Source of the DNA: Pseudoalteromonas sp. R3
GTDB lineage: Bacteria; Pseudomonadota; Gammaproteobacteria; Enterobacterales; Alteromonadaceae
Direction of reading: 5' to 3'
DNA length: 64,000 nt
Assembly (NCBI RefSeq): GCF_004014715.1
Contig: NZ_CP034834.1
Location: 806,001 to 870,000, forward strand
A program made the position numbers and the translations under genes. Positions within the stretch are counted from its first letter, which is position 1; each line of letters opens with the position of its first letter. Shown here one piece after another: positions 34,823 through 64,000 of the stretch. The notes beneath the pieces were generated by a model. That model made no database searches. It was not told where the DNA came from and saw only the letters and a list, made by a program, of their open reading frames with translations.

Positions 34823-35011
34823 ATGGCGCATGATATATGCGTATTGATTGTGCGAAAGTTTTGGATAAATACGATCAAAATCGGGTTTTTCTCGCTGATA
34901 GTACAAGGGTTATGGCTGATTGGATTTGTGTGCACCTGGCGACCTCAACATGATGACATGTTTGCCAGTGTTTTCTTTATCATCAACTTGATTGCAAAAG
35001 CGAAAATATGA
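34823..35011 (+). CDS. Possible 62-aa membrane leader ORF overlapping the NRPS1 start
   Basis: The frame reads [20 protein letters not shown] then two hydrophobic stretches, and its TGA overlaps the ATG of NRPS1 (ATGA at 35008-35011). NRPS1 itself has no good Shine-Dalgarno, so coupled translation from this ORF is conceivable. Weak ribosome site, no family; it may be spurious. Confidence 0.25.
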
Positions 35012-38000
35012 AACAGTTCTTTTTACAGCTCAGTGAAAAAGGGATCAAACTCACTGTCGATGAGCAGGGTAAGTTGCTTGTCAGGGGTAAATTGAAAGCC
35101 CTGACCTCAGAAGAAAAAGATTTTCTAAAGAACAACAAAGCGCAGATCATAGAGTCTATTCTGGCACACCAAAAGGTGTCGGCCGTGTCTCCCATTGTAG
35201 CCACAAAAACAGAATCGTATGCCGATACTGTCTTGTCCTTTTCTCAACGTCGATTATGGTTTATCGACAAGCTTAATGGGGGGTCCAGTGAATACAATAT
35301 GCCTATGGCATTCGAGGTGCACGGACAGCTGAACATCGACAGGGTGGGGCAGGCCCTGAACGAGATAATACAACGTCATGAAGTGTTAAGAACGGTTTTT
35401 TATGAGCGCGATGGTGAGCCCTGCCAGATGGTGTTGGACAATACGTCTTTAACCATCACAGTGCTGGATTTGAGCGAGCAGACAGACTCCCATGGTGCAG
35501 CTGACGCTTATCTTATCCGTGACGCTGCCAGAACATTTGATTTGAGCAAGGATTTGATGGTGCGGGCCAGTTATTTGCAGCTGACGCATGATGACAGTGC
35601 TGCCTGCCAGGCCATTTTAAGTTTCAACATGCACCATATTGCCTCCGACGGTTGGTCGATGGATGTACTGACCAAAGAGTTTTTTGCCATCTACCAGGCC
35701 CTCGAGCAAGGCATGTTAGCTGCATTGACGCCATTACCTATCCAGTATCGTGATTTTGCCAACTGGCAACAGCAAACCTTTGCCACAGAAGGACTAAACA
35801 AACAATTAGATTACTGGCAACAGCAGTTAGAGCATGTGCCAGCATTGCATCAGCTGCCATTAGATGCAAGCCGGCCTGCTGAAAAACAGTATCAGGGCGA
35901 ATTGGTCACGGCACAGCTAAGCGCAGCCGTTGCAACTCAGTTACTGGCACTGGCCAGAGCCTTTCAGTTAACCCCTTTTATGCTGTTGCACAGTGCGCTG
36001 GCGTTAGTATTAAGCCGACACAGTAACACTAAAGATATTGTTATTGGCAGTCCGGTCGCTAACCGCCAGGATCCGGCTCTGGCTCCTTTAATCGGTTTTT
36101 TTGTCAACACTCTGGTTTTCAGAGTCAGCACTGCGCATGACACCCTGAGTGATTATCTGGGCCATGTCAGAGCGGTACATCTGGGTGCACAGAGCAATCA
36201 GGATGTGCCATTTGAGCAGCTGGTTGAAGTACTTAATGTGCCCCGCAATAACGCCTACAGTCCACTGTTTCAGATTTTACTGACCACGGATAACCACTAT
36301 GGAACAGCACCGTCTGACGCGCAGGGAATAAAGCTTGGGGCCGCCACTTTGCAGGCCATGCCAGAAGCTGCCCTGACCACCAAATTTGATCTGGACATTC
36401 ATATGTCAATGAATGAGTCGGGCGTGTCGGTGGGCTGGACTTATGACATAGCTCTGTTCAGCAAAGCACATATCAGTCAGCTGAGTCAGCACTTATGCAA
36501 TGTACTGAGTGCTCTGGCTAAGTTGGCCGAAGCAGGAGACTGGTCTGCCAGGCTTGCAGCCATACCGATGGAGAGTGAGCAAGAGCAGCAACAAGCGTTG
36601 GCGCTAGGCAGTGGCCGCGTAGTTGACCCCAAGTGCTCGGCTGTGCATCACTTGCTTGAACATCAGGCTCAGGCCAATCCTGATGCCGTGGCAGTGGAAA
36701 CACAGGAGGCTCAGGTCACTTTTGCTCAGTTAAATGCACGTGCCGATGCACTGGCAAAACGCCTCGTTACAGAGCATCAGGTGAGCATGGGCCAGCCGGT
36801 GGGCATTGTGGCGCAGCGCTGTGTTGACACTTTGTGCGGGATTGCCGCAATACTGAAAGCGGGTGGGGCCTATGTACCACTAGACCCCCAGGCGCCGGTA
36901 GACAGATTAAACTATATTGTCGGCGAACTTTCACTGTCGCTGATATTATCTCACTCGCTGGATTCTTTTGTCGGCATGCCGTGCGTAAGGCTGGACGACC
37001 CCACGCTGTGGCAATTTCCTGAGCTGTCTGCCGAGCTCCCTGAGGTGGCAGCCAACAGCCCGGCTTATATCCTGTATACCTCAGGCTCAACAGGCAGACC
37101 AAAAGGTGTCAGCCAGCGCCACAGCACGCTGGTTAATCTGTGTATGCATCAGGCGTATGTTGACGGCATTACACAGCCCTACCGTACATTGCAATTTACG
37201 CCACTGACATTTGATGTGTCAGCTCAGGAGCTGGCAACAAGCTGGTATACCGGATCTCCGCTGATGCTCATGTCTCAGCAGCAAAAAGACCAGCTACAGG
37301 ATCTGGGCGCTCTGGTTGCAAAGCACAATATTGAGCGCTTATTTGTGCCACCAGCTGTGTTTGACCTATTGGCTGAGCAGGCCACGCAACATCCGGGTAT
37401 TCCTATGGCAGCACTTAAGCAAGTGTGTGTTGCCGGAGATGTGCTGAAGATCACCCCCAGTATTCGCGCATTTATGACACAGCATCCGCAGTGTGATTTA
37501 TATAATCATTACGGGCCGACAGAGACGCACGTCGCCACCACCTATCATGTACAAAACTCAAACGAAGAAGAAGTCAGTATAGGCCAGGCAATTGCCAACA
37601 CGACTTGTCTGATCCTGGACGCCGATTTAGCGCCTGTGCCTGTGGGCTGTGTGGGTGAGCTCTATGTTGCCGGACCGGGTGTGGCCTTGGGTTATTATAA
37701 CAACCCAAGCCTGACTGAAGCGCGTTTTCTTGATAGATCACAGTTGCAGGTGCCACAGGCGGATATCGCGTGTGTCTACAAAACGGGCGACTTGGTGCGC
37801 ATGACGTCGCAGGGCAACTTGCAGTACCTGGGCCGCAGTGATGAACAAATAAAAATTCGAGGTTTCCGTATTGAGCCGGGTGAGATAAGTGCGGTGCTTG
37901 AGTCCTTCCCAGAGGTGGAATCGGCGCTGGTGCTTGCCACTGGCGAGGGCGACAGTAAACACCTGGTTGCATATGTGCGTCCTTGTATCACGTGTGAGAC

Positions 38001-41000
38001 AAATGAGATACAGCAGCACCTGATCACCGCTTTACAGACTCAGCTAAAAGATCTGTTGCCCGCATATATGGTGCCTTCCGCCATTGTGGTGGTCGAGCAA
38101 TGGCCGCTGACCCGTAACGGCAAAATTGACAGGCGTGCACTGCCTGTCATCGACTTAACTCAAACGCAGTGTCAGGGAGAGGCACCGCACACTGCGACTG
38201 AACAGGCACTGGCGCAGATCTGGTCAACCCTGTTAGGGTGTGAAGCAGCAACGCTGACCCGAGATGCCGATTTCTTCGCGCTGGGTGGCCACTCTTTGCT
38301 GTCAGTCAGGTTAGTTTCTTTGATCCGCAGTGAGTTTGAGATTGAGGTTGCGGTTAAACAGGTTTTCTCAGCGAGCACGTTACTGACAATGGCGGCCCTG
38401 ATTGAGTCAGGTACCAAAGCCACTCGGCCACCCATTGAACCACAGGAGAGAAATACAAACCGCTTTGCGCTATCTTATGCTCAGCAACGCCTGTGGTTTA
38501 TCGATCAGTTTCAGGGCAGCTCTGCTCAGTATAATATGCCCATGGCTTTTGAAATAGAAGGTCCATTTGATCTGACTCTGGCCCAGCATGCACTGACGAC
38601 GATAGTAGAGCGTCATGAGGTATTGCGGACTGTTTATCAGGAAGGGCAACAAGGACCTGTGCAAGTGATCATGGCGGTACAACCTGTGGTGATACGACAT
38701 CTGGAACTCAGTCATCTGGATGGTGCGCACGCACAACAACTTGATCAGCTGCTGGCTGAAGATGCACATGCGGCCTTTGATTTAGCCTCCGACCTGATGC
38801 TACGTGCCAGCTATATTAGCCTGGGTTCGCAGCGAGGTGTGCTACTGCTTAATATGCATCATATTGCCTCAGATGGTTGGTCATTAAATCTGTTCAGAGA
38901 AGAATTCTTCACGCTTTATTGCGCATTTAGTGCAGGCCAGGACAACCCGCTGCCTGCACTGAAGATTCAGTATGCTGATTTTGCCCAGTGGCAACGTAAC
39001 TGGCTACAAGGTGAGGTGCTGCAACAGCAGCTCGATTACTGGCAGGCACAGCTGAGTGAAGCGCCTGGCGTACACAGTATTCCACTGGATAGTCCAAGAC
39101 CTGCCGAAAAACAATATGATGGCGCTATGGTATCGGGCAAAGCATCGGCACAGCTGGCGACACAATTATGTGATATGGCTGCGCACTATCAGATGACGCC
39201 ATTTATGCTGCTGCATGCGGCACTGACACTGACCATCAGTCGTTACAGCAACAGTCTTGATGTGGTGATTGGCACGCCGGTTGCGAATCGGATGCAGGCG
39301 GAAGTTGAGCCGCTGATAGGTTTTTTTGTCAATATTCTTGCGCTGCGGGTCAACACAGAGCAGCCCTCTTTGGACAGTTATCTGCAACACGTCAGAGCCG
39401 TTCATCTGGATGCACAAAGTCATCAGGACTTACCGTTTGAGCAGCTGATTGACGCATTGCAGATCCCGCGGGGTGATGCCCATGCGCCGCTTTGTCAGAT
39501 CATGACCTCATTTAACAGCACTCAGGCACAGGCAGGCTCAACACAGAGTGCACCAGAGGGCTTGGTGATCACGCCCGTTATGCAGGCCGGTTGTGTAGCA
39601 AAATTTGATCTCGAAGTGGAGTTTTCCATGAGTGAGTCCGGACTGCAGGCCAACTGGATTTATGATACTTCACTGTTTACTGAGTCGCATATCACCGAAT
39701 TGAGTGAGCATCTGATGCTGTTACTGGAGCGCCTGGTGCAAACTGAGATGACACAAAATCTGAATCATTCACCCGGACAGCTGAGTGTGCTGGCGAACGA
39801 ACAAAGCCAGTATCTGGTTAATGCCCTCAACGACAATTACCATGACTACGAGCGGTCGCTATGTATTCATCAGGCATTTGAACAACAGGTAGCGCGTAAT
39901 CCAGAGCATATTGCGCTGATCTTTGCCGATCAACAACTGAGTTATGCTCAGCTAAATGGCAAAGCCAACCAGCTTGCACACTATCTGCGTGAGCGCGGTG
40001 CCATACAGTCGGACACTTTGATAGGTGTGGCACTTGAGCGTTCACTGGAAATGATCGTCGCCACACTTGCGGTGTTGAAAGCGGGTGGCGCTTACGTACC
40101 GCTGGATCCGGCCTATCCGCCAGCACGACTGAGCTATATGCTCGAAGATGCTGGCATCAAAACCATTATCAGCAATGAGACCATTAGCGAAGCTGTACGT
40201 CTCTCGGGGTTTGACCTTATCACTGTAGACGGTCTGCTGAGTGATGATGCGTTGGGGCCTTTCAGTCATTGCAGTGATGAAAACCTGGACAGCAAAGCAC
40301 TCGGACTATTGCCTACCAGTTTGGCGTATGAAATCTATACCTCAGGGTCAACAGGCCAGCCAAAAGGCGTGTTGCTTGAGCATCAGGGGATCGTGAACCT
40401 GGCGGATAATCAACGCCGGGCATTTGCCATCACCCCGCGCAGCAAAATCCTGCACTTTGCTTCCATGAGTTTTGATGCCGGTACCTGGGAATACGCCATG
40501 GCGCTGCTAAATGGCGCGACCCTGGTGATTGCACAGAGCGAACAAAGACGCTCGCCCGAGGCCATTACGGCGCTGCTGGCAGAGCAACAGATCAGCCATG
40601 TCACTTTGCCACCGGCATTCCTGGCCATGATGCCGCTCGAAACTTCGTTGGCCTTGCAGGCGTTGATTGTCGCCGGTGAAGCGTGTGAAGCTGAGCTGGT
40701 CAATCAGTGGTCGGCACATTATCCCTTCTTTAATGCCTATGGTCCGACGGAAGCCTCCGTATGTGCTTCTTATCAGCGGCTCTATCCGGGCGCGCCAATC
40801 ACCATAGGCAAACCCCTGAACAATGTCAGTCTGTATGTCCTGGATAAGCATATGAATCTGGTGCCACCGGGCGTGATTGGGGAGTTGCATATTGGCGGTG
40901 ATGGTCTGGCTCGTGGCTATCATAAACGTCCCGAACTGAGCGCTGAAAAGTTCGTCGATAACCCGTTCTACTATTGCCCGGCCCATCGCGACAGCACACG

Positions 41001-41697
41001 CTTGTATAAGACCGGAGATCTGGCCCGGGTTCTGCCTGATGGCAGTATTGACTTTGTCGGTCGTCTGGATGCTCAGGTTAAAATCAGGGGCTTTCGGATT
41101 GAGTTGAGCGAAATTGAAGCGCAATTAAACCGCTGTCCACAACTGGATTCGGCCGTGGTGTTAGTGAAACAAGCCAGTAACGGGGCGGATATGCTGGTCG
41201 CATACATTCAGCCACACACTGAGGCTGAAAACACCACAGAGCTTATCTCAGGCGTTGAGCAAGATATGTATGAGCAATTACCGGAATATATGGTGCCGAG
41301 CCGCTTTGTGGTGGTTATGCAATGGCCGCTGACTCCGAACGGTAAGATTGATAAAAAAGCCCTGCCGGATATATCCGCAGAAGACTCTGAACAGCCCTAT
41401 GTGGCGCCACAGACTGAAACTGAGCTGGCGCTGGCCCAGGTCTGGTCCGACTTACTGGGTATGGAGGCCGCTTTGATCAGCAGCCATGCACGTTTTTTTG
41501 AACAAGGGGGCAACTCCATTTTGGTAACCCGGCTGGAGACTCAGATCCGACATCGTTTTGCGGTGGAATTCTCTATCAAAGAGCTGTTTGCTCAACCTCA
41601 GCTCAAAGAGCAGGCCTTACATATTGATTATCTGCTCAGCCGCCAGAGCGACCTGCAGACCCAAGATGATACTGAGCTGGAGGAAATGGACTGGTAA
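35008..41697 (+). CDS. NRPS1: TubC-C-A-PCP-C-A-PCP (two modules, Pro-like and Phe-like)
   Basis: 2229 aa. Residues 1-55 are a TubC-type docking domain ([20 protein letters not shown]). C1 (about 72-500) has HHIASDG at 209. A1 has [10 protein letters not shown] (692) and YNHYGPTE (832); pocket residues read as D-V-Q-L-C-A-H-V-A, closest to proline codes. PCP1: LGGHSLL, Ser1096. C2 (about 1155-1590) has HHIASDG at 1284. A2 has [10 protein letters not shown] (1779); code D-A-W-T-I-A-A-V-C, a phenylalanine code. PCP2: QGGNSI, Ser2170. The acidic tail ([10 protein letters not shown]) fits a short docking motif for the TubC domain of NRPS2. Both C domains are of the LCL kind; with the N-terminal docking domain this argues against a starting role. 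No epimerase or TE. Confidence 0.93.
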
Positions 41698-41763
41698 AGG
41701 TGGCGGGCTACTTAATTCGCCCGTTCAACATGAGCACAGGTACCAAAAAGCACGTATAAACCT

Positions 41764-41905: not shown

Positions 41906-44900
41906 ATGGAAAATATCAAACAGCTACTCGTGCAGCTTGAGCAGGCGGGGATCCGGCTATTTCTGCAGGACGGGGCATTAAAGTCTAAAGCCAAAAAAGG
42001 GGCCATAACGCCCGACATTGCCAGGCAGATCAAACAACATAAAAGTGCAATTATTGAGGCGCTGACACACTATAGCGATGCCCCGCAGGTAAACCCGGTG
42101 ACCCCCCGTGAAGACCTCAGCCATTATCCAGTATCATTTGCACAGCAACGCCTGTATACGCTGGACCAAATTCAGGGTGGCTCCGCCGAATATCATATGC
42201 CGATGGTGTTCAGGCTCAGTGGACAACTAGATGTGGCACTGATAGAGCGGGTGTTTCGTGAGATTGTTTCCCGTCATGAGGTGCTCAGAGCCGTTTTCCG
42301 GCAATCCGCGCAAGGTATGCAGCAATCCCTGCTTGACCCGCAAGACTTTACCGTTGAGGAGTCACACCTGACAAGTCAGGACGAGGCAAGTGGTATTGAG
42401 CGCTTTGTTCGTGAGGCCGCAGAGCAGCCTTTCAATCTGGCTGAAGACTTTATGCTGCGGGTGCGTTTTGCGACTCTGCCAGCGGGAGATGCAGGTGTGT
42501 TGTTTATCAATATGCACCATATCGCCACCGACGGCTGGTCTATGGACATCCTGATCCGGGAATTCTTTGCCCTGTTCCATGCCTTTGGTTATGGTCAGCC
42601 AAATCCGTTGCCGGAGCTTTCCATTCAGTATGCCGACTATGCACAATGGCAACGTGACTGGCTGCAAGGTGAGGTGCTGGATGCCCAGCTCAGTTACTGG
42701 CAGCAGCAACTGGCCGAACTGCCCCGAGTTCATGCCCTGGGGCTCGATTACCCCAGACCTGAAGTGAAAACATATCAGGGCGAGGTGGTATCACAGACTT
42801 TGAGTGCACAGTTATGTCAGCAGCTGGCATCCGTTGCCCGTCGCTATGGGTTAACCCCGTTTATGCTGATCCATGGGGCGCTGGCGCTGGTACTGTCTCG
42901 CAACAGTAATCACCATGATATTGTCATCGGCACGCCTGTGGCTAACCGCCGTCAGGTGGAGCTCGAATCGCTGATCGGCTTTTTCGTCAATACATTAATC
43001 CTGAGGGTGAATACTCAGGCGCAACCACTTGGTGACTATCTGGCTCAGCTCAGGCAGGTACACCTGGATGCTCAGTCTCATCAGGATCTGCCTTTTGAAA
43101 AACTCGTTGAAGTGTTGAAAGTACCGCGCAGCACAGCCCATAGCCCGCTGTTCCAGATTATGCTGACCACGAACTCCGAATACGGTGTGCGCGATGCACA
43201 TGCTGATACCACTGAGCTGGCAGGTCTGTCCATCAGCCCATTGCAGGGCAATGGCGCAACGACCAAGTTTGATCTGGACATCAATGCCTCGGTAAGTGAT
43301 GACGGCGGCGCAATTGAATGGACCTATGACGTGGCACTGTTCACGCGCGAGCGCATCGAAACCCTGGCGCAGCACCTCAACAACACACTGGCTTTTCTGG
43401 CACAGCTCAATGCCGACAGTACGCTGAGCACCGCTGCTATCCCTATGCTGACCGATAATGAGATTACACAGCTCAGCGGGTTTAACGACAACGCTATTGA
43501 GTATCCACAACAGCGCTGTATTCACGAGCTATTTGAAGCACAGGCAGAGCAAGCACCTGAACGCGTTGCTGTGCAGTGTGGCGATGTTGCTGTGAGTTAT
43601 GGTGAACTGAATGCCAGAGCCAATCAGCTGGCTCACTATTTGCGGTTTGAGCATCACATTGCTCCGGATTGTCCGGTGGGGATATGTCTGGAGCGTGGCG
43701 TGGAAATGGTGGTTGCTATGCTGGCTGTTCTCAAGGCCGGTGGCGCTTATATTCCGCTTGACCCGGCTTATCCTGAAGAGCGTCTGGCTTATTTGATTGA
43801 AGACGCCAGTCTGAAAGTGGTCCTGACCCAGCAAACACTCACCGGTACAGTGTCATTGCCCGGCACACAGAGGGTAATGCTGGATGACCTGATTACACAG
43901 CCCGGCTGTGCGTTCTCGCATTATTCCACGGCAAATATCGGGCGCTGTGAAAGTGGTGTGACTGAACAGCATCTGGCCTATCTGATCTATACCTCGGGGT
44001 CGACGGGCAAACCAAAAGGCGTGATGATCGAACACCGTAACACAGTCGCAATGCTTTACTGGGCCAGGGCTGCTTTTAGCGATCAGGCGCTGCGCCGGGT
44101 ACTGGCCTCAACGTCACTGAACTTTGACTTGTCTGTGTATGAAATCTTCTTACCTTTGAGCTTTGGGTTCGAAGTTGTGGTGGTTAAAAATGCCCTGGCA
44201 TTGGCGGATCAGCCGCTGGATATCAGCCTGATCAATACCGTGCCCTCAGCAATGAAGGCGCTGCTGGATGTGGGCGCATTACCCGCAAGCCTGACCACAG
44301 TTAATCTGGCCGGTGAACCACTGACAGCGCAACAGGTAAACCAAATTTTTGCAGCCTTGCCCGAGGCTGAGGTGTGTAATCTGTATGGGCCGTCGGAAGA
44401 TACCACTTACTCAACCTGTGCGCGCTTTTCCACACAGCTAGAGTCGGTGCCGGACATAGGTTATGTCATCGCCAACAGTCAGGCCTATGTGCTGGGTGAA
44501 GCGATGGAGCGCTTGCCAATTGGCTGTGTTGGTGAGCTTTATCTTGGCGGTGCCGGTGTTGCCCGTGGTTATCTCAATCGGCCTGAACTGACCGAAGAGC
44601 GTTTTATTGCCAATCCCTATTACGAGACACACAACACGGATTGCAGCCCTCGCCTCTATCGCACTGGCGACTTAGTGCGTTACCGGCAGGACGGACGACT
44701 GGAGTTTATTGGTCGCAGCGATGACCAGGTGAAAATCCGTGGATTCCGTATTGAGCTGGGTGAGATTGAACATCGCCTGAACCAACTCGATGATGTTGCA
44801 TTGTCGCAGGTGCTGGCGCGCACACTGGCGGATAGTCAGCAGCAGTTGGTGGCTTATGTCCAGCCTTGTATCACGTGTGAGACAACCCAGGATGAGACGC

Positions 44901-47900: not shown

Positions 47901-48651
47901 TTATTCGCAATCCGTATCAGACTCAGGGCAACCAGCCTGAAACCTTGTATCGCACCGGCGATCTGGTGCGCTGCAATACTGACGGGCTGATTGAATATAC
48001 CGGGCGGGTAGATGCTCAAATTAAAATTCGTGGCTTCCGGGTTGAGCTGGGTGAAATTGAACGCCAGCTGGAAATGCTGGACGATGTGGCTGCGGCACTG
48101 GTCACCATTAAAACGCGCACCGGGGGGATAAACAGCTGGTTGCCTATGTGGAATTAAACTGCGGTGGCAAACAGGAGGAACAAGGTGCGCATATTCAGGG
48201 GCTGGCCCAGGCACTGGCCGCCCAGTTACCTGCCTATATGATCCCCGCAGCCTTTGTACTGGTGCAAGACTGGCCGTTAACACCGAATGGAAAAATCGAC
48301 AGACATGCTCTGCCCGAAGCGGATTTCAGTCTGATGCAGGCTGAATATGTGGCACCGGCCAGCGAGCTGGAAACGCAGCTGGTTGCACTGTGGTCGGAGT
48401 TACTGGACCTGCCAGCTGAGCAGATCAGTACACAGGCCAACTTTTTTGAGCTGGGTGGCCATTCACTGTTGGTCATGAAGTTGCTTCAGGCGCTTAACCA
48501 GCACCTTGAAATTGAACTGCAAATCGCTGACCTGTATCGCTGCGAAAATATTCAGCAGATTGCCGGGTTTATTGAGTCGGTTCAGGCCATTCATGACCAG
48601 GCGCTGCCAGCGCAGCAAGACAACAATGAATTTGAGGATTTTGAGCTATGA
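41906..48651 (+). CDS. NRPS2: TubC-C-A-PCP-(dual E/C)-A-PCP, split by a one-base deletion
   Basis: As read, a 2083-aa frame stops at 48157 and the last 167 aa continue in another frame from 48148. Adding one G to the G6 run at 48122-48127 restores KTRTGGDKQLVAYVELNCGG and a single 2248-aa protein. Docking domain 1-56; C1 with HHIATDG (204); A1 with TSGSTGKPKG (697), pocket D-L-Y-N-N-A-L-T-Y (alanine-like); PCP1 Ser1095. The second C domain starts with ITPDMLTLATLEQSEIDAIA and YPLAPLQEG and has HHLITDHVS (1314), the dual epimerisation/condensation type. A2 with TSGSTGTPKG (1785), pocket D-A-L-W-L-G-G-T-F (valine-like). PCP2 Ser2187 (corrected numbering). Tail NNEFEDFEL fits docking to NRPS3. 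Its stop overlaps the NRPS3 start (ATGA). Confidence 0.92.
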
Positions 48652-54600: not shown

Positions 54601-56095
54601 CCTGGCCCGCGGCTATCTGAATCGCCCGGAGCTGACTGACGAGCGCTTTATCGCCAACCCGTTTTTCGATGCCAGTGCAGCAAACAGCAGCCAGCGGTTG
54701 TACAAAACCGGCGACCTGGTGCGCTATCGCGAAGACGGCAACATTGAGTATATGGGCCGGCTGGATCATCAGGTGAAGATCCGCGGTTTGCGCATTGAGC
54801 TGGGCGAAATTGAGTTTTATATCGGTGAGCACAGCGATGTAGATTCAGCGCTGGTGATGGCCTTAACCGATGAGCATGGTAGTCAGCGTCTGGTGGCTTA
54901 TGTGAAGCCGCTGGGTGAATACGATGAGCAGGCACTGACGACTGCCATCAGAGCACAGCTTAGCGAGGTACTGGCCGAGTACATGGTGCCCGATAGCTTT
55001 ATCTATATTAGTCAGTGGCCACAGACGCCAAACGGAAAAATTGACCGCAAGGCGCTGCCTGCGCCTGAGTTGTCCGCACTGTCTGGCGGTTATGAGGCAC
55101 CGAAAGGGGATACTGAAGTGATGCTCGCGCAGGTGTGGGCCGATGTCCTTAAACTGCCCGCCGATCAGATCAGCCGTGACGCCAACTTCTTTGCACTGGG
55201 TGGCCACTCGTTGTTGGTAATGAAGCTGGTGCAGAATATTGATCAGGTTTTCAAAACCCACGGGATTGCTATCAACAAAGTGGTAGAGCGACCCACACTC
55301 AGCGCCATGGCCGAGTGCATTGCTCATCATAATGACCAGCAATGGCAGGCCATTCGCCCCGTGTTGTCACTGGATTTTGACCCGGCAGTAACGATTTATC
55401 TGGCGCCCGGAGCGGGCATGACCAGCGGCGGCTACATGGACCTGGCACGGGCGTTACCTCAGGTGCAGATCATGAGTCTGGAGCCTGTAGGCATGAGCGA
55501 GCAGGACCCGGTTATCGACAGCTGGGATGAACTTATCAGTTGCTATGCAGATGCCATTGTCAGTGAGCGCAATGCGCGTGGCGCAGAGGCAGAACCGGCT
55601 GTACTGATGGGCCATAGTTCAGGGGGAGCCGTAGCATTTGCAACTGCACTGAAACTGGAGTCATTAGGATGTAAAACACAGCTGCTACTGTGCGAGTGTT
55701 TAGTGGCAACCGATGATGAAGCCCAGTTCGAGATCAGCGATGCTGAAAAGCAGGAATTAATGCTGTCCTATGCCAAAGCGCTTAAACCTGAAGACAGCGA
55801 AGAGCAGTTGTTGTCCTGGCTCAGCCTGGGTATGACTCAGCGCCTGTTCAATGTGTATTTCCAGCAGGTGGACTGGTCAAGACGCTATCAGCCCGAAGCC
55901 TGCCTCAATGGTGCGTTAAGCATGATAGTGACTCCTGAGCTGGGAGAAGCATACTGGCAGCAAAAACAGACCCAGTTGCAGGCATATGTCAGCACACAGG
56001 TAGAGACCATCCACACAGAAGGCAAGCATGTCACTATGGTGAAAAGTCCTTATGTCAGTGGCCTGGCAGACAAACTCATGGCGCTACTGGCCTGA
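48648..56095 (+). CDS. NRPS3: TubC-C-A-PCP-(dual E/C)-A-PCP-TE, split by a one-base deletion
   Basis: As read, 1389 aa to a stop at 52817, then a second frame to 56095. Adding one C at 52805-52806 restores AYPFGLSEVNGDGG, matching the same place in NRPS4 (LPFGLSEV), and gives 2482 aa. Docking domain 1-55; C1 HHIASDG (209); A1 TSGSTGLPKG (700), pocket D-A-L-W-L-G-G-T-F (valine-like); PCP1 Ser1100; dual-type C domain with ITPELLDLVSLTQDEINEIT, YPLAPLQQG and HHLLIDHVS; A2 TSGSTGKPKG (1789), pocket D-V-W-H-F-S-L-I-D (serine); PCP2 Ser2188; thioesterase from about 2245 with GHSSGG (Ser2324) and the late His in GKHVTMV. The TE makes this the last enzyme of the line and would release or cyclise the peptide after Ser. 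Confidence 0.92.
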
Positions 56096-56163: not shown

Positions 56164-56206
56164 GTAATACCTATTTTAGAATTAGTAACCATTACAAGGC
56201 TGTTTT

Positions 56207-57880
56207 ATGTTATATCGGCTAGTTTTATCTCATAAGAAACTACTCATACTTGCCACGCTTTTGAGTGTTGTCAGTGCGCTTTCAGGCATCGGCATCATTT
56301 CACTGGTCAATGCTGAGATAGAAAATGTGTCTAACCCGGACTCTGATGTGCTCAAAGCACTGGGCATTTTTTTCGTCGCACTGGCGGGGTTTCTCACCTT
56401 TAGTGTGATTTCTCAGTACATTCTCACTAAGTTATCCGTTCAGATCATGGTAAGTATTCGCGAGAATCTGGTTCAGCGTGTTTTGTCGACCAGTTATGAG
56501 CAGATTGAGCGCGTGGGTGGGCATCGGATTTTTGCTACTTTGACCAAAGACATTGAGTCACTCACCGCAACCCTGAGTGCCGTACCGCATGTGGCCTATA
56601 ACCTGGCTACCGTGTTGCTGTGTTTTGCTTATATGAGCTATCAGTCCTGGCAGCTGTTTTTGTTTGTCGGTGGCGTGTTGTTGCTAGCTATGCTGGTCGC
56701 TCAGCTGCTTATGAGCCTGGGCATTCAGCGCTTTCAGGCTGTGCGGGAACTGGATGACAGCCTGTTTAAGAACTTTCGTGCCCTGATTGACGGTGGTAAA
56801 GAACTGAATATTAACTTCAACCGTAAGCGTTTTTTTTACAAAGAGGTGGTGACGCCAAATATTCAGGAAATTAAAAAGTCGACAATTTCAGCGCACATTA
56901 TATTTATCATTCTGAGCAACTGGACCAATCTGATCTTGTTCCTGGCGCTGGGGTCTGTGGTTTTTATGTCACAACTGTTTTTGAGCGGCATAGCCACTGA
57001 GGTGGTGGTGAGCTTTGTGCTGACGCTGGTTTATGTGATTGGTCCACTGACGGTGTTGATCAACACCTACTCTGTGGTTGCTGAGGGCATAGTGTCGAGC
57101 CAGAAAATAGAAAAGCTGCAACTATCGGAAGAGATTTTGACTGATCAGCTGGACAACACACTGCACCCTGAGCATAATTGGCACACTCTGGACATCGAGG
57201 CCATCGAATATGAATACCGTCGTGATGACAGCGACGACTACCACTTCTCCATCGGGCCTATCAGTACGCAAATCCAGCGTGGCGAAATCGTTTTCCTGAT
57301 TGGCGGCAATGGCTGTGGTAAATCTACCTTCGCCAAAGTGTTATGTGGTTTGTATACCCCAACTCGCGGCAGTATCCGCCTTGATGGTCGGGATGCCGCG
57401 CATGCAATGGATTGGTACCGTTGCCACTTTAGCACCATCTTTTCTGATTTCTACCTGTTTGAGCAAGTGATCGATGCCAACGGCATGCTGGCCGATGACA
57501 ACAAAATTCGTCAATATCTGAGCAAGCTGAAGCTGGATCAGAAAGTCACGGTAGAAAAAGGCATTTTATCGACCACTGAGCTTTCTCAGGGTCAGAAGAA
57601 ACGTCTGGGCTTATTGCTGTCGTACATGGAAGACACACCGCTTTATATTTTTGATGAATGGGCAGCCGATCAGGACCCGTATTTCAGAAACTTCTTTTAT
57701 CGCGAACTCTTACCTGAGCTTAAGTCTTTGGGTAAGACCGTGTTCGTGATCAGTCACGACGAACATTACTTCTCACTGTCTGACCGCATTCTCAAATTTG
57801 AAGCCGGTCAGATGGAAGACGTAACCACGTCATTTGCATCTGCAGAACCTGTTGCTGAACAGCCTGTAGCGCTGGCCTGA
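56207..57880 (+). CDS. Cyclic-peptide ABC exporter (SyrD/PvdE type)
   Basis: 557 aa, a fused membrane and ATPase half-transporter. Six membrane helices in residues 1-300, then Walker A FLIGGNGCGKSTFAKVLCGL (about 363-382), the unusual signature LSQGQKKRLGLLLSYMEDTP and Walker B LYIFDEWAADQDP. LSQGQKKR and DEWAADQDPYFRNFFY are characteristic of the SyrD/PvdE cyclic-peptide exporter group that moves NRPS products across the inner membrane. Located between NRPS3 and NRPS4, so export of the peptide made here is the natural reading. AAGG eight bases before the ATG. Confidence 0.93.
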   Translation: MLYRLVLSHKKLLILATLLSVVSALSGIGIISLVNAEIENVSNPDSDVLKALGIFFVALAGFLTFSVISQYILTKLSVQIMVSIRENLVQRVLSTSYEQIERVGGHRIFATLTKDIESLTATLSAVPHVAYNLATVLLCFAYMSYQSWQLFLFVGGVLLLAMLVAQLLMSLGIQRFQAVRELDDSLFKNFRALIDGGKELNINFNRKRFFYKEVVTPNIQEIKKSTISAHIIFIILSNWTNLILFLALGSVVFMSQLFLSGIATEVVVSFVLTLVYVIGPLTVLINTYSVVAEGIVSSQKIEKLQLSEEILTDQLDNTLHPEHNWHTLDIEAIEYEYRRDDSDDYHFSIGPISTQIQRGEIVFLIGGNGCGKSTFAKVLCGLYTPTRGSIRLDGRDAAHAMDWYRCHFSTIFSDFYLFEQVIDANGMLADDNKIRQYLSKLKLDQKVTVEKGILSTTELSQGQKKRLGLLLSYMEDTPLYIFDEWAADQDPYFRNFFYRELLPELKSLGKTVFVISHDEHYFSLSDRILKFEAGQMEDVTTSFASAEPVAEQPVALA

Positions 57881-57890
57881 AAGCCAGATA

Positions 57891-57907
57891 GCGGGCTTTC
57901 GGCCCGC
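57891..57907 (+). terminator. GC-rich hairpin between exporter gene and NRPS4
   Basis: GCGGGC / GCCCGC stem with a five-base loop, 10 bases after the exporter stop, followed by CACGTTTT. A possible partial terminator; NRPS4 begins 73 bases further. Confidence 0.45.
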
Positions 57908-57980
57908 CACGTTTTGTGCCTTACGGTTATGCCTTATGGCCTGAGTATTATCAAGGTCCCGCGCATCGGGGCCAGTGAGT

Positions 57981-60900
57981 ATGGATAGACCAAGAATGAA
58001 TAATAGACGTTACCCCCTGACATCATCTCAGCAACCAGTCTGGATGGAGCAAGTATTCAAGAGTGAATCCCCACTGTACAACGTTGGGGGTCGGTTTGTA
58101 TTAACAGGGGCACTGGACCCGATACGCTTTAAGCATGCACTGGATCACGTCGTAGCACACACCGACGCTTATCGTATCAACCTGGTACTGGAAGACACCC
58201 AGCCCTGGCAAATCATCAATGATGATCTGCAACTGGACTGGAAATGTATTGACCTCAGTGGCTATGCGGATGCGCATCAGCGTGCAGCAGACTATTGCCA
58301 GACTCAGATGTCTACTCCCTTTGATATTTATGGCCCTTGTTTATGGCGCATTCACTGGTTAAAAATCTCCGAGCAGGAAAGTGCCATGTGTATGGTGTTC
58401 CACCACCTGATAGTGGATGGCATTGCGGGCAGTCTGTTCCTTGAGTACCTCAGTGAAACGTATCTGGCGATGGATGCACAGGGGCGTTTCATTAAAGAAG
58501 TGCCTGAACGCCCGTCGTACAGCGAGTTTATTGAAAAAGACCTGGCCTATCGGCAGAGCAGCCGGTTCGAAAAAGACCGGGCTTTTTGGCAGGAAAAGTT
58601 TAAGACCTTACCCGATCCGCTGCTGTTGAAGAAAACCAATCAGTTTGATGACCAGCCATTTGCCCGTCGCGAATACGAATTTACCCAGCAGCAGTACAAT
58701 CAAATCGGTGCGGTTGCCGCGCGTTATGGTTGCTCGGCAACACACTTTTTCACCACCCTGGTCGCGGTGTATTTTTCGCAGATGAATGATAAGCGTGATC
58801 TGGTCCACATCGGGATGCCCGTCCACAACCGCAGCTCGGCTAAATTACGCCAGACGATAGGTATGATGGCGTCAGTGATCCCCGTTGGCGTGGCCTTTTC
58901 GCGTACCGACAGCTTTGCTGACACCTTTAAAGCCGTGGCCGCCGAGCTCAAACGCAGCTACAAATATCAAAAGTACCCGCTGCATGAAATGATCCGTGAC
59001 CTTCGGCCGATGAATGAGGGTGAGGGTCAGTTGTTCGATATTCAGCTGTCAGTGGAAGATCACCCTTCCGATACCCAGTTTGGCGAAGTGTCTAGTTACA
59101 AGGCGGTGCTGAACAGTGGCTTTAGCTCATACCCTTTGTCTATTTATGTGCGCAGCCATGATAATATTAATAATGTCCATGTTGAATTTAACTTTGACCG
59201 AAACTTCTTCAACGAGGATGAGATAGATGGCCATGTCAGCCGTCTGACGACCATGATTGCCGATGTGGTAACCAACCCAACCATGCTGATTGGCGATTAC
59301 ACGTTAGCCACTGAGCAGGAAATCGAGCAGCAGCTGTTCGACTGGAACGGTAACCAGGTTGACTATGCGTCTCAGTTAACGATACAGCAAGTGTTTGAAC
59401 AGCAAGTTGCTGCCACGCCCAATCACTGCGCTCTGGTGTTTGGTGAGACGTCTCTGAGCTACCAGGCACTGAATGAACGGGCCAATCAGCTGGCTCACTA
59501 TTTAGCGCAACAAGGGGTTATGCCGGGCAGCTATGTGGGCGTGTGTATCAACCGCTCCATCGAAATGATGATAGCCATCCTGGCGACCCTCAAAGCGGGT
59601 GGTGTTTACGTGCCCCTGGATCCCAATTACCCGGCGGAGCGCCTTGCTTACATGATGGAAGACTCCGCAGTCAGTGTGATCCTGACCAATGAGCGGTGTC
59701 GTGAGTCGCTGGCATTTGCCGCTGACAAAGTGATTTCGCTGGACACCCAGGCAGGACAATGGGCTCAGTGTGGCCTGGACAACCTCAGCACAGAGATACA
59801 GCAACACAGCGATGAGCTGGCTTATCTGATTTATACGTCGGGGTCGACGGGCAAACCTAAGGGCGTGATGTGTACCCACCGTGGTATTGTCAATCTGGCG
59901 CAGAATCAGCAAGCCCGGTTTGCCATCACGCCACAAAGCCGGGTATTACATTACGCGTCAATCAGCTTTGATGCAGGCACCTGGGACTGGGTGATGGCGC
60001 TGCTGAACGGCGCAACTCTAGTGATCAGCAGCGATGAAGCACGTCTTGAACCGGCCAAAGTGGCCGATTTATTTGTCCAGCAGCAGATCACTCATGTGAC
60101 CTTGCCTCCGGCGTTTTTGGCGACCATGGAATATCGCGAAGACTATGCATTGCAATGTCTGATTGTGGCGGGTGAGGCCTGCGAGCAAGAACTGATGGAC
60201 TTATGGTCCTCACGTTATGGTTTTTTTAATGCCTACGGTCCGTCTGAGGCATCGGTGTGTGCCACTGTATGTCAATTGATGCCGGGTAATGCGGTTCGCA
60301 TCGGTAAGGCGCTCGATAATGTGTCTTTGTTTGTCCTGGATGAATATCAAAAAATGCTGCCGGTTGGCTCTATTGGTGAGTTGTATATCGGTGGTGCCGG
60401 ATTGGCGCAAGGCTATCTGAATCGCCCTGAGTTAAGCGAAGAGAAGTTTGTCGCTAATCCCTTTTATCAGCAAAACCCGCAAACCGGAGCGCGTCTGTAT
60501 CGCAGTGGCGACCTGGTTCGTTATTTGCCGGATGGTGAGCTGGAGTTTGTCGGGCGAGCTGACGATCAGGTTAAAGTGCGCGGGTTTCGCGTCGAGCTGG
60601 GTGAGATTGAGCACGGCCTGAATAAACTCTCGGCCGTGCATTCATGTGTGGTACTGGCAAAGCGCCAGGGTGGCACCAATCAGTTACTGGCCTGCGTGAT
60701 CCCGGAGCAGCCGGTGACAGAGTCGGAGCAGGCTGAGTTTGTCTTTGCGCTGCAACGAGAGCTTGAGCAGGAGTTGCCTGCACATATGGTGCCTGGGCAT
60801 TTCACTTTGCTGACTCAGTGGCCACTGACCCCGAACGGTAAAATTGATAAGAAAGCCCTGCTGGCGTGCACAACCATTGCATTGCAGGGAGAATATCTTG

Positions 60901-63900
60901 CACCACAAACGGATACCGAAATGACATTGGCGGCCTTATGGTCTGAGTTACTCAAAGTCGATGATGTGAGCGCGACCGCCAACTTCTTCCAGCTGGGTGG
61001 TCATTCCCTGTTGCTGATGCAACTGGCCAGTCAGCTGCAAAACCTGGGCTGGCAAGCGCGGGTTCACGATCTGTTTGCTACCGCGTCGTTGCGGGAAATG
61101 GCAGAACTGCTGGACAGGCAGGGTAAAGATGGCAGCACGTTTGAAGTGCCTAAAAATGGCATCCCGGCTGACTGTCACTATGTGACGCCCGAGATGCTGG
61201 ATCTGGTTGAGTTGAGCCAGCATGAAATTGATGAAATTGCCGCAAAAATACCGGGGGCGCACCGTAATATTGCCGATATATACCCACTGGCACCCCTTCA
61301 GGAAGGTGTGTTATTCGTGCATACCTTAAATACTCAGGCTGACCCTTATGTCACCACGGCGGCGTTCGAGTTTACCAGCCCGGCACAGCTGGCTAATTTC
61401 CAGCAGGCGCTACAGCGTATGCTGACAACCCACGATGTGCTGCGCACAGCTGTGATGTGGCGCGAGCGCGAAACCGCGGTACAGGTGGTGATGCGTGAAG
61501 CAAAACTAAGCGTATCGCATCTGGTGTTTGATACTGAGCAACCGATCAAAGCTGCATTTGAAGCCTATGTGGCTGAGCATCAGCACACTCTGGACCTTGA
61601 ACAAGCACCGCTTATCAAGCTGGCTGTTACAGAAGCCTGTGACGAGGGTAAATGCTATGCATTATTGACTTTCCATCACCTCACGACGGATCACGTTTCA
61701 CTGGATATCCTGGTATCCCAGTTACAACAGCTATGTGATGACCCTGATTGCGCATTGCCCACGCCATTACCTTATCGTGCCTTTATCGCGCATACGCTTG
61801 AACACAATCGAGGGCTTGACGTAGCCGGATTCTTCTCGGCGCAATTGGGTGATATAGAAACCCCCACACTGCCTTTTGGTCTGAGTGAGGTGACAGGCAG
61901 TGGTGAGACTATCGTTGATCACCATGACATATTACCGATTGAGTTGAGTGACGCAATCCGCACCCTGGCACGGCGTGAAAGACTGAGTCCGGCAGCCCTG
62001 TTTCATCTGGCCTGGGCGCAGGTGATAGCCGCCTGTTGTGGGTCGCAGGAGGTGGTATTTGGCAGTGTGATGTCTGGCCGGATGAATGGCATGGCGGGCA
62101 TTGAGACCATGATGGGAATGATGATCAACACCCTGCCATTGCGTGTTTCACTGGATGAGGCTCCTGTGCTGACTCAGCTTAAGCGGGTCGATCAGAGCCT
62201 CAAAGCCTTGTTGCCCTACGAGCAGGTATCGCTGGCCGAAGCACAAAAATACAGTGGCCTGGCCAGCGGCGCCACCCTGTTCAGCGCCATGCTGAACTAT
62301 CGTCACTCTGCTGCGCATGACGATATAACTGCGCTGCACGACAGCAATGCTGCCTGGACTTTACTGAGTGCCAAAGAGCGCACCAATTATCCGTTTGGCC
62401 TGTCGGTAAATGATTTAGGACAAGGCTTCTCGCTGGAGTATCAGATTGACCAACAGGTTGATGTAAAGCAGGTAGCGGCTTATCTGACCAATGCGCTGGC
62501 AAACCTGGTGACAGCATTAAATGAGACACCGGAGCAACCTGTTTCTTACAGTATACTACCTGATCAGGCACAGCAGCATCAGTTGGTGCAGTGGCAGGCG
62601 GATGCGCCCTGGTATCGCAGTGACCTGCAGATCCAACAGGTGTTTGAAGCACAAGCCGCAAAGACGCCAGACGCCATTGCACTGCAACTTAATGAGCAGA
62701 CACTCAGTTATGGCGAGCTCAACGCGCAGGCTAACCAGTTGGCGCATTACTTACGTGAGCAACATAGCGTGACTGATGGTACTTTGGTAGGTTTATGCAT
62801 TGGCCGCTCCATTCAGATGGTGGTAGCCACATTGGCGATTGTGAAAGCCGGCGGTGCCTACTTGCCATTAGAGCCCAATTATCCGCAGTCCCGCCTGGAG
62901 TATATGCTGGCTGACAGCGGTGCGCAGGTGATATTGACTGAACAAGCGCTTTGCGAGCGGCTCTCGTTCAGTGGTGCAGAGTTAGTGTCCGTGGATAGCC
63001 ACAACAGCCGGTTTGCTAAGTACGGTACGGATAATCCGCTGTGCAATGACGCGCAGTCACCGCAGTCTCTGGCGTATGTGATTTATACTTCGGGCTCAAC
63101 CGGAAACCCTAAAGGGGTCATGACGCCGCATCGTGCGGTGGTACGTCTGGTAGATAGTCCTGACTTTATTGAGCTGGGGAGTGACACGGCGTTTTTGCAA
63201 TGTGCCAATATCGCCTTTGATGCAGCAACCATAGAGATCTGGGGACCTTTGCTCAATGGCGGTCGTTGTGTGCTGTTCCCCGATGAATATATGACGGTAA
63301 CACGTCTGGACGAGGTGATCCGCGAACAGCAGATCACAGCCATGTTCCTGACGACCGGCCTCTTTGATGAGTGGAGCCGCACCGGGGTAACTCAGAATTC
63401 ATTGCGTTGCGTGTTGTCCGGTGGTGAATCCGCGCGTCTGAACAGCTGGGAAAAAGCGCTGGCCAGTAACCCAAACTGTCAGTTTGTTCATGTATATGGA
63501 CCCACAGAGAATACTACCTTTTCCACCTGGTATGTGGTCAATACTGACGATATTGCCCGTGGCGTGCTGCCGATTGGCACCGGGATTTGCGGTGATCGTT
63601 GCTATATTTTGTCTGCACAGCAGCAGTTGTTGCCGGTGGGCGCTGTCGGTGAGCTTTATCTGGGGGGAGCCGGATTAGCTCTGGGATACCTGAATCGCCC
63701 TGAACTTAATGCTGAGCGTTTTATTGATAATCCCTTTGTGAATTTACCCGGACAGTCTCAGTATCTTTATCGTTCTGGCGATCTGGTGCGCTACGACGAG
63801 CAAGGCCAGATTGTGTATGTTGGTCGGGTAGACGACCAGATTAAGATCCGGGGTTTTCGCGTCGAGTTAGGTGAGATTGAGCACAAACTCAATGCGCTGG

Positions 63901-64000
63901 AGCAGGTTGAGCAGGCCTTAGTCGTGGCTCGTAAAGACCTCAGTAATAACGCCATGATAGTGGCCTATGTGGAACCTGCGGTTCAGCTGCCTGAGGACCA
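57981..64000 (+). CDS. NRPS4: C-A-PCP-(dual E/C)-A..., partial, probably the starting enzyme
   Basis: Open from the ATG at 57981 (or 57996) to the right edge, at least 2006 aa. It has no TubC domain. The first C domain begins YPLTSSQQPVWMEQVFKSES and has HHLIVDG (141); it differs from the LCL domains of NRPS1-3 and resembles starter-type domains (EntF-like opening, N-acylating role possible). A1: TSGSTGKPKG (about 621), pocket D-A-W-T-I-A-A-V-C (phenylalanine). PCP1: LGGHSLL, Ser1009. A dual-type C domain follows (YVTPEMLDLVELSQHEIDEI, YPLAPLQEG near 1101, HHLTTDHVS near 1231). A2: TSGSTGNPKG (about 1706), pocket D-A-I-F-L-G-V-T-F, an aliphatic residue such as Ile or Val. The rest of module 2 and any further modules lie beyond the window. 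Confidence 0.9.
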   Translation, partial: MDRPRMNNRRYPLTSSQQPVWMEQVFKSESPLYNVGGRFVLTGALDPIRFKHALDHVVAHTDAYRINLVLEDTQPWQIINDDLQLDWKCIDLSGYADAHQRAADYCQTQMSTPFDIYGPCLWRIHWLKISEQESAMCMVFHHLIVDGIAGSLFLEYLSETYLAMDAQGRFIKEVPERPSYSEFIEKDLAYRQSSRFEKDRAFWQEKFKTLPDPLLLKKTNQFDDQPFARREYEFTQQQYNQIGAVAARYGCSATHFFTTLVAVYFSQMNDKRDLVHIGMPVHNRSSAKLRQTIGMMASVIPVGVAFSRTDSFADTFKAVAAELKRSYKYQKYPLHEMIRDLRPMNEGEGQLFDIQLSVEDHPSDTQFGEVSSYKAVLNSGFSSYPLSIYVRSHDNINNVHVEFNFDRNFFNEDEIDGHVSRLTTMIADVVTNPTMLIGDYTLATEQEIEQQLFDWNGNQVDYASQLTIQQVFEQQVAATPNHCALVFGETSLSYQALNERANQLAHYLAQQGVMPGSYVGVCINRSIEMMIAILATLKAGGVYVPLDPNYPAERLAYMMEDSAVSVILTNERCRESLAFAADKVISLDTQAGQWAQCGLDNLSTEIQQHSDELAYLIYTSGSTGKPKGVMCTHRGIVNLAQNQQARFAITPQSRVLHYASISFDAGTWDWVMALLNGATLVISSDEARLEPAKVADLFVQQQITHVTLPPAFLATMEYREDYALQCLIVAGEACEQELMDLWSSRYGFFNAYGPSEASVCATVCQLMPGNAVRIGKALDNVSLFVLDEYQKMLPVGSIGELYIGGAGLAQGYLNRPELSEEKFVANPFYQQNPQTGARLYRSGDLVRYLPDGELEFVGRADDQVKVRGFRVELGEIEHGLNKLSAVHSCVVLAKRQGGTNQLLACVIPEQPVTESEQAEFVFALQRELEQELPAHMVPGHFTLLTQWPLTPNGKIDKKALLACTTIALQGEYLAPQTDTEMTLAALWSELLKVDDVSATANFFQLGGHSLLLMQLASQLQNLGWQARVHDLFATASLREMAELLDRQGKDGSTFEVPKNGIPADCHYVTPEMLDLVELSQHEIDEIAAKIPGAHRNIADIYPLAPLQEGVLFVHTLNTQADPYVTTAAFEFTSPAQLANFQQALQRMLTTHDVLRTAVMWRERETAVQVVMREAKLSVSHLVFDTEQPIKAAFEAYVAEHQHTLDLEQAPLIKLAVTEACDEGKCYALLTFHHLTTDHVSLDILVSQLQQLCDDPDCALPTPLPYRAFIAHTLEHNRGLDVAGFFSAQLGDIETPTLPFGLSEVTGSGETIVDHHDILPIELSDAIRTLARRERLSPAALFHLAWAQVIAACCGSQEVVFGSVMSGRMNGMAGIETMMGMMINTLPLRVSLDEAPVLTQLKRVDQSLKALLPYEQVSLAEAQKYSGLASGATLFSAMLNYRHSAAHDDITALHDSNAAWTLLSAKERTNYPFGLSVNDLGQGFSLEYQIDQQVDVKQVAAYLTNALANLVTALNETPEQPVSYSILPDQAQQHQLVQWQADAPWYRSDLQIQQVFEAQAAKTPDAIALQLNEQTLSYGELNAQANQLAHYLREQHSVTDGTLVGLCIGRSIQMVVATLAIVKAGGAYLPLEPNYPQSRLEYMLADSGAQVILTEQALCERLSFSGAELVSVDSHNSRFAKYGTDNPLCNDAQSPQSLAYVIYTSGSTGNPKGVMTPHRAVVRLVDSPDFIELGSDTAFLQCANIAFDAATIEIWGPLLNGGRCVLFPDEYMTVTRLDEVIREQQITAMFLTTGLFDEWSRTGVTQNSLRCVLSGGESARLNSWEKALASNPNCQFVHVYGPTENTTFSTWYVVNTDDIARGVLPIGTGICGDRCYILSAQQQLLPVGAVGELYLGGAGLALGYLNRPELNAERFIDNPFVNLPGQSQYLYRSGDLVRYDEQGQIVYVGRVDDQIKIRGFRVELGEIEHKLNALEQVEQALVVARKDLSNNAMIVAYVEPAVQLPED

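Follow-up and report, generated by a model that had tools for sequence, protein, structure and literature searches.

The NRPS gene cluster

A run of seven nonribosomal peptide synthetase (NRPS) genes lies partly in a stretch of 64,000 nucleotides of Pseudoalteromonas sp. R3, a marine bacterium (P. rubra or closely related to it; genome of 5.82 Mb in 2 contigs). This stretch, positions 806001-870000 of the first contig (C1), is called the window here. The run spans window position 35008 to window-equivalent position 94501, 30.5 kb beyond the window end; window-equivalent positions are window coordinates continued past that end. Pfam profile matches over the genome, together with local domain models, give seven proteins with 17 modules of condensation (C), adenylation (A) and carrier (T) domains and one NRPS-fused thioesterase (TE). 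The seven proteins very probably form one 17-module line with the working order NRPS4-5-6-7-1-2-3, which is a rotation of the gene order. Gene order and working order would thus not be collinear: the starter-type protein is encoded fourth and the TE protein third. The features are listed in Table 1.

Table 1. Features of the NRPS run (window coordinates unless marked window-equivalent)
Feature	Position	Strand	Remarks
NRPS1	35008..41697	+	TubC-C-A-T-C-A-T; proposed fifth in working order, residues 12-13
NRPS1 TubC-type docking domain	35014..35154	+	K24, V27, R28 (Kj12C numbering); no adjacent upstream tail; proposed partner NRPS7
NRPS1 first C domain	35230..36531	+	[14 protein letters not shown] class (LCL-like); would require a donor bound to a carrier
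NRPS1 C-terminal docking tail ELEEMDW	41674..41694	+	
NRPS2 first fragment	41906..48157	+	TubC-C-A-T-C-A; frame break downstream of A core
NRPS2 TubC-type docking domain	41915..42064	+	
NRPS2 second fragment	48148..48651	+	T and docking tail EFEDFEL
NRPS3 first fragment	48648..52817	+	TubC-C-A-T-C(part)
NRPS3 TubC-type docking domain	48660..48806	+	
NRPS3 second fragment	52889..56095	+	C(part)-A-T-TE; proposed terminal protein
Thioesterase (TE)	55391..56041	+	sole TE fused to an NRPS of the run; proposed release site
ABC transporter, cyclic peptide export subfamily	56207..57880	+	TIGR01194, 425.7 bits, cut-off 286.2
NRPS4	57975..64000, on to window-equivalent 71003	+	(C-A-T)x4, no docking domain; proposed first protein
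NRPS4 first C domain	58005..59330	+	starter-like; motifs YNVGG, HHLIVDG
NRPS5	window-equivalent 71003-74526		two fragments; TubC-CAT; outside window
NRPS6	window-equivalent 74526-84533		TubC-CAT-CAT-CAT; outside window
NRPS7	window-equivalent 84533-94501		TubC-CAT-CAT-CAT, tail DEDEEVLEI, no TE; outside window

Without their frame breaks, the domain strings would read TubC-CAT-CAT for NRPS2, as in NRPS1, and TubC-CAT-CAT-TE for NRPS3. Genes overlap by one to four bases at the NRPS2/3, 4/5, 5/6 and 6/7 borders, and a gap of 208 bases separates NRPS1 from NRPS2. The motif GHSSG is present in the TE of the orthologous cluster in one related genome (G054). A profile search of the run found no TE on NRPS4-7; NRPS7 ends in a T domain and a tail, with no release domain. 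Local models found no epimerization (E) domain in the seven-protein line. An earlier sequence-only reading of the window had placed a TE at the end of NRPS3, where it is indeed found, and had taken a TE at the end of NRPS4 as grounds for refuting its proposed order. Its estimate of at least eight residues holds as a lower bound but is far too low, given the 17 modules counted.

Docking domains, tails and the proposed working order

Which protein hands its chain to which? TubC-type docking domains (TubC_N, PF18563, the N-terminal 50 residues or so) stand at the start of six of the seven proteins, all except NRPS4, and six of the seven, all except the TE-ending NRPS3, carry a short C-terminal tail. 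NRPS4 gave no TubC match and starts straight at its C domain. The Pfam cut-off for TubC_N is 26 bits. NRPS2 (64.9 bits), NRPS5, NRPS6 and NRPS7 are above it; NRPS1 (25.1 bits) and NRPS3 (22.6 bits) are just under it and are unlisted by hmmscan at E 0.001, but both nonetheless align over the full length. The tails end in ELEEMDW (NRPS1), EFEDFEL (NRPS2), VMMSGTL (NRPS4), LVEDGEI (NRPS5), NVERIVF (NRPS6) and DEEVLEI (NRPS7). Docking domains on NRPS1-3, their absence from NRPS4 and the acidic tails LEEMDW and FEDFEL had all been described correctly from the sequence alone. An acidic tail on the last NRPS to the right had been named as a check, and NRPS7 ends in DEDEEVLEI. Since NRPS4 and NRPS6 have tails that are not acidic, the acidic-tail rule applies to just part of the line.

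Since NRPS4 lacks a docking domain and NRPS3 carries a TE where the others have a tail, any single chain has to begin with NRPS4 and finish with NRPS3. The genome has nine TubC matches at E 0.01, six of which belong to the line; two others, in a cluster at C1:243736-275711, come directly after tails. Once the other TubC/tail pairs in the genome are matched, the NRPS7 tail and the NRPS1 docking domain remain. Other NRPS proteins of the genome carry C-termini too, some of them acidic, next to genes without TubC.

Contacts between tail and docking domain are described by Hacker et al. (available text of PMC6195595) for Kj12C: R24 pairs with tail position -2, E28 pairs with position -4, and Y27 packs on a glycine at -3. 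This numbering was transferred by alignment to the Kj12C sequence. Adjacent docking pairs were then counted in a sample of the genus drawn from 30 loci, 39 chosen stretches and cluster regions that include one of G014. The 132 pairs were reduced to 71 by removal of this line and of repeats, and to 60 at no more than 70% TubC identity. Tail position -2 against domain position 24 is acid-basic in 25 of the 60 pairs and neutral on both sides in 21; one side is neutral in 14 and like charges do not occur. At tail position -4 against domain position 28, charges are opposite in 32 pairs (31 acid-basic, 1 basic-acid), both sides are neutral in 7, one side is neutral in 21, and again no pair is like-charged. 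A glycine at -3 faces F or Y at position 27 in 23 of 23 cases (other tails, 1 of 37), and tails ending in W face S or T there in eight of eight (other tails, 0 of 52). A hydrophobic last tail residue is also a pattern in these pairs.

Among the docking domains of the line, NRPS2 has S27, NRPS5 and NRPS6 have F27, NRPS7 and NRPS1 have V27, and NRPS3 has L27; position 28 is E in NRPS7, R in NRPS1 and K in NRPS3; NRPS7 has S at position 24. The NRPS1 tail ends in W and hence fits NRPS2 only. The G at -3 of the NRPS4 and NRPS5 tails restricts both to NRPS5 and NRPS6; with self-docking barred, NRPS4 goes to NRPS5 and NRPS5 to NRPS6. The R at -4 of the NRPS6 tail clashes with R28 of NRPS1 and K28 of NRPS3, which leaves it NRPS7 with its E28. 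NRPS2 to NRPS1, combined with NRPS1 to NRPS2, would be a closed loop; therefore the NRPS7 tail goes to NRPS1 and the NRPS2 tail to NRPS3. On the assumption of one chain and no self-docking, the docking rules leave a single predicted chain, 4-5-6-7-1-2-3. It has opposite charges at 7 of 12 charge contacts, like charges at none and at least one neutral side at 5. At the NRPS7-NRPS1 joint, E at -2 meets K24 and V at -4 meets R28. With the position-27 rules added, the order follows independently of the trained score described below.

In the proposed order NRPS4 would make residues 1-4, and its starter-type C domain would probably acylate them. NRPS5 would add residue 5, NRPS6 residues 6-8 and NRPS7 residues 9-11. 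The chain would then pass from NRPS7 back upstream to NRPS1, a hand-over that we infer from the docking domains and tails read in the sequence; NRPS2 would add residues 14-15 and NRPS3 residues 16-17. At each joint the C-terminal tail would extend the beta-hairpin of the following TubC-type docking domain by one strand. The TE of NRPS3 would release the chain, probably as a cyclic peptide, and the ABC transporter whose gene separates the two halves would export it. Reading the genes in chromosomal order would thus predict the wrong molecule, and the rotated order offers a concrete prediction of 17 residues for a cluster for which no product was found. With rules as simple as these (G at -3 with F/Y27, final W with S/T27, absence of like charges), other split lines of this NRPS-rich genus could be ordered too, and the rules lend themselves to a binding assay.

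Condensation domains

Is NRPS4 equipped to start a chain and NRPS1 to continue one? C-like domains were compared in a tree after fragments of fewer than 330 residues were dropped (254 kept, 243 distinct), and then those of fewer than 380 residues or at least 85% identical (227 left). The first C domain of NRPS4 has 17-20% identity to the 15 other full-length C domains of the line. It falls in a clade of 6 of the 227 domains (support 0.998), all of which open a protein without a docking domain; the clade includes its own orthologue from G102, and the tree is without a proven reference starter. The member from G014 lies on the NRPS that opens the stretch read there, with two TubC proteins after it. 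In 10 of 10 cluster genomes the NRPS4 domain is the first of its protein, with no carrier or docking domain before it. Its matches in PDB are EntF (115.7 bits), Txo1 (111.3), Txo2 (104.3), 7c1k, 7c1h and 7c1p (94-89) and the PCP-C didomain 7kvw (55.5). The first C domain of NRPS1 matches Txo2 (246.6 bits), Txo1 (238.9), 7kvw (209.6), 7c1k (42.3) and EntF (39.7). EntF and 7c1k we take to be starters, and 7kvw an LCL domain. The NRPS4 domain is thus starter-like by the tree and mostly so by the PDB matches, as the sequence-only reading had suggested when it proposed that the domain be classified.

The largest of the listed nested clades around the NRPS1 domain (74 domains, support 0.646; an inner clade of 46 has support 0.998) holds 38 domains preceded by TubC, 33 preceded by T, 2 N-terminal ones and 1 with the DH motif. 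None follows an E domain, which agrees with the LCL type assigned to this domain earlier.

The motifs PLAPLQ...DPY and HHxxxDH occur together in 8 of the 17 C domains: the second to fourth of NRPS4, the second and third of NRPS7, and the second of NRPS6, NRPS2 and NRPS3, in the last case across two fragments. These eight are 41-97% alike, and the motif HH[I/L]xxxxGD is degenerate in them. One of them, the second C domain of NRPS2, was placed in the tree; it lies in a clade of 24 (support 1.0), 21 members of which have the DH motif, and this clade groups with the post-E domains. We read the eight as putative dual epimerization/condensation domains. The remaining eight, the NRPS4 first domain aside, belong to the LCL-like [14 protein letters not shown] class.

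Identity reaches 97% between the C domain of NRPS4 module 4 (C1:873803-875107) and that of NRPS7 module 2 (C1:894058-895362). The A domains of NRPS4 module 3 and NRPS7 module 1 share one code and are near-identical in the alignment. The modules look as they might after a recent duplication or gene conversion.

Conservation in the genus and frame breaks

The start of NRPS4 is present at 65% identity or more in 10 of 108 genomes of the genus, and these 10 are also the ones that have the start of NRPS1 at 59% or more. In every one of them NRPS1-2-3 come first and NRPS4 next, with the halves adjacent, and NRPS5-NRPS7 follow in the 8 where the sequence reaches; those of G001 and G094 stop inside NRPS4. 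In G106, NRPS7 is cut at a contig end and its tail lies at the other end of the contig. Neither half was found without the other at high identity among the 108 genomes. Extra matches are more distant, 48-49% for NRPS1 (G031, G046) and 34-37% for NRPS4 (G014, G021, G092). Judged by the NRPS4 start, there are named relatives in Pseudoalteromonas rubra, namely S2599 and S2676 (99%) and S2471 (94%), and in Pseudoalteromonas sp. XMcav2-N (98%). The left part of the cluster is seen in G001, and a P. tunicata protein 66% identical to the NRPS4 start suggests that this species has the cluster too.

The same cluster occurs in G102, where the proteins are 60-69% identical to those of G054. Between these two genomes the last seven residues of the six tails are identical at six or seven of seven positions. 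In the NRPS7 tail, six of the last seven residues are identical and only 6 of the preceding 17. This contrast is absent from the NRPS4 tail (6 of 7, and 14 of 17 before). The GKLLVRG strand of the NRPS1 docking domain is unchanged in 10 of 10 genomes. A tail without a partner would be expected to drift.

In the present assembly the frame is broken in NRPS2 (about 48148-48157), NRPS3 (52817-52889) and NRPS5 (window-equivalent 72802-72829), and as a result the FEDFEL tail and the TE sit on second fragments. Other breaks are found in NRPS1 of G007 and NRPS3 of G106; none occurs in G051, G052, G053, G054 and G102, nor in the parts present in G001 and G094. Breaks affect three of the five assemblies of at most 3 contigs and none of the five of at least 30 contigs, and lie at differing places. 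With read types as we infer them, this fits long-read indel errors better than decay.

Trained score and alternative readings

A kernel score was trained on the 60 pairs. On leave-one-out it picked the true tail among six in 55% of cases (chance 17%), with a median true-tail rank of 8 of 60. Among the 120 orders with NRPS4 first and NRPS3 last, the rotated order ranks first (2.47; next 1.63). The claim that assembly starts at NRPS4 and ends at NRPS3, out of gene order, is thus backed by docking rules, score rank and starter-like C domain alike. A nine-by-nine matrix for the genome joined the line's six tails and docking domains with three further ones; for it and for a recount, three orthologues of scored pairs were removed in addition (57 left). 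With self-docking barred, the matrix optimum retains NRPS7-NRPS1, NRPS5-NRPS6, NRPS6-NRPS7, NRPS2-NRPS3 and the pair on the second contig (C2). Without self-docking in the line, 10 of 205056 assignments, the proposed set included, reach the proposed set. The score is of use for whole assignments and weak for any one joint.

Several observations weigh against the rotated order. Over all 720 assignments it ranks second (2.47), the best (2.63) having NRPS7 on itself and NRPS6 on NRPS1. The matrix optimum (4.30, against 3.83 for the gene-adjacent set) misplaces four tails relative to gene adjacency, and of 362880 assignments, 24 (the proposed set among them) score at least as high as that set. The direct NRPS7-NRPS1 score is about zero (0.01), and because it is neutral the joint rests on elimination; the highest-scoring docking domain for the NRPS7 tail is its own (0.63). 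Seven unrelated megasynthase C-termini score from -0.28 to 0.55 with the NRPS1 docking domain, and since two of them (0.55 and 0.38) stand above NRPS7, the score has little power at this joint and by itself would leave them as possible feeders. None of the 10 cluster genomes has the genes in working order, and with three of seven genes broken the line could be dead in this strain. Txo1 and Txo2 match the first C domains of both NRPS4 and NRPS1, and the starter clade contains no chemically proven starter. The peptide itself is a prediction from the genes. The position-27 rules and the weakness of the score at the NRPS7-NRPS1 joint pull in opposite directions, and the single rotated line keeps the high probability given at the outset.

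Could the run be two separate lines, NRPS1-3 making a hexapeptide released by the TE and NRPS4-7 an 11-residue peptide released otherwise? Gene order, the gap after NRPS1 and the transporter gene between the halves would suit such a division. NRPS1, however, lacks a loading module and opens with a docking domain followed by an LCL-like C domain, NRPS7 finishes with T and a conserved tail rather than a release domain, and the halves co-occur in 10 of 10 genomes; two lines are improbable. A single line might instead give products of several lengths, if NRPS7 also docked on itself or NRPS6 also docked on NRPS1. The row maximum of the NRPS7 tail and the best unrestricted assignment point that way, and promiscuous docking is reported for rhabdopeptide NRPS in the available text of PMC9872161. 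Yet R at -4 of the NRPS6 tail would meet R28 of NRPS1, a like-charge contact found in 0 of 60 pairs, and the NRPS7 tail would make no opposite-charge contact with S24 or E28 of NRPS7, so that we give such branching little chance. Just as slight is the chance that the NRPS7 tail docks both NRPS1 and its own domain, its three modules being reusable; if it did, a peptide ladder of 17, 20 and 23 residues would come from one line.

Another NRPS elsewhere in the genome might feed NRPS1. The regions of all PF00668 matches of the genome except C2:4024440-4025588 were read, and besides the nine matrix tails there are other, partly acidic C-termini, some of which outscore NRPS7 as noted. A TubC gene on C2 (1191185-1194520, minus strand) has no upstream neighbour, so distant pairing seems possible. 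Its docking domain, however, suits the GWL tail found in that gene's own cluster (1.56, the matrix maximum); paired with the NRPS7 tail it gives -0.88, and the GWL tail paired with NRPS1 gives -0.68. The C-termini at 0.55 and 0.38 have no TubC partner gene beside them and are off the hydrophobic-last-residue pattern, and NRPS1-3 are found only beside NRPS4 in nine further genomes too. A feeder of this kind is scarcely credible, and no separate starter protein for NRPS1, which the sequence-only reading had named as a possible refutation, was found in the NRPS regions read. That reading had looked for the donor of NRPS1 in the last carrier of NRPS4 or in a gene to the right; the second choice is probably right, with NRPS7, reached by elimination, as the donor rather than NRPS4.

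Predicted product

If the rotated line is right, what would it make? A-domain codes were compared with a table of known codes; the residue names are leads, weakest at positions 4, 5 and 14. In working order they give the residues of a tentative product, acyl-D-Phe, D-Ile/Val, D-Lys-like, Ala?, X (Leu or aromatic), D-Ser, Thr, Ser, D-Lys-like, D-Ser, Val, Pro-like, Phe, D-Ala?, Val, D-Val, Ser, where dual-type C domains would set D at 1, 2, 3, 6, 9, 10, 14 and 16. The starter-type C domain of NRPS4 points to a product that is probably N-acylated, i.e. fatty-acid-capped. The ABC transporter passes the TIGR01194 cut-off, which makes ring closure, and thus a cyclic product, likely; its top score is to PRK10522 (437.7, under that model's 604). 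Among the literature matches listed, no described peptide with the predicted sequence and no publication on this cluster were found. The available text of PMC7917724 gives 19 clusters in P. rubra S4059, most with unknown products; that of PMC4359443 gives counts only.

Neighbouring genes and other NRPS loci

To the left of NRPS1, window positions 18248-25525 hold HlyD-type and MacB/FtsX-type genes, then an NtrC-type regulator and a histidine kinase-type ATPase protein. A trypsin-like protease with a carbohydrate-binding module (CBM5/12) follows at 25968-27323. Directly left of NRPS1, two open frames (31347-33597) match no Pfam family at E 0.001; for the second there is a weak ParB-like hit that stays under the cut-off. 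To the immediate right of the line, a single NRPS frame of 5104 amino acids (C1:919330-934644, minus strand) has an N-terminus, SPVYNV, similar to that of a starter C domain.

A divergent NRPS cluster of about 50 kb lies at C2:1173764-1223573. Its minus-strand genes start with the TubC gene considered above, whose docking domain fits the GWL tail of the cluster's own plus-strand protein (cf. the pairs GGWL/KLGFK and EGWL/RLGFK elsewhere). This is possibly a second out-of-order line in the same genome.

Comparison with known systems

Non-collinear NRPS lines are already a known kind, of which this line would be a new member. The Pseudomonas cyclic lipopeptide synthetases have a tandem TE pair. 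Unlike them, the line described here has TubC-type docking domains, one TE and a rotated gene order. Features in common are C domains of a putative dual epimerization/condensation type, the lack of separate E domains and a C-terminal TE. To our knowledge, the predicted sequence matches none of the Pseudomonas cyclic lipopeptides. A starter-type C domain, described in the available text of PMC8949500, would be a further likeness.

Within the genus, flavipulchrins (PMC12819058) and bromoalterochromides (PMC13097078) are likewise NRPS lipopeptides of Pseudoalteromonas; as the accessible parts of these sources describe them, they have seven and five residues, respectively, and other residues than those predicted here. 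Nearest in docking is Kj12ABC, the Xenorhabdus rhabdopeptide synthetase (PDB 6ewt, 6ewu, 6ewv; PMC6195595, available text): the NRPS2 TubC domain matches Kj12B at 27.0 bits and Kj12C at 18.3 bits, and the Kj12 contact positions 24, 27 and 28 fit the pair counts of this genus. Kj12, however, consists of three single-module proteins, whereas the line in Pseudoalteromonas sp. R3 has seven proteins, six of them multimodular, in what would be a fixed, rotated order.

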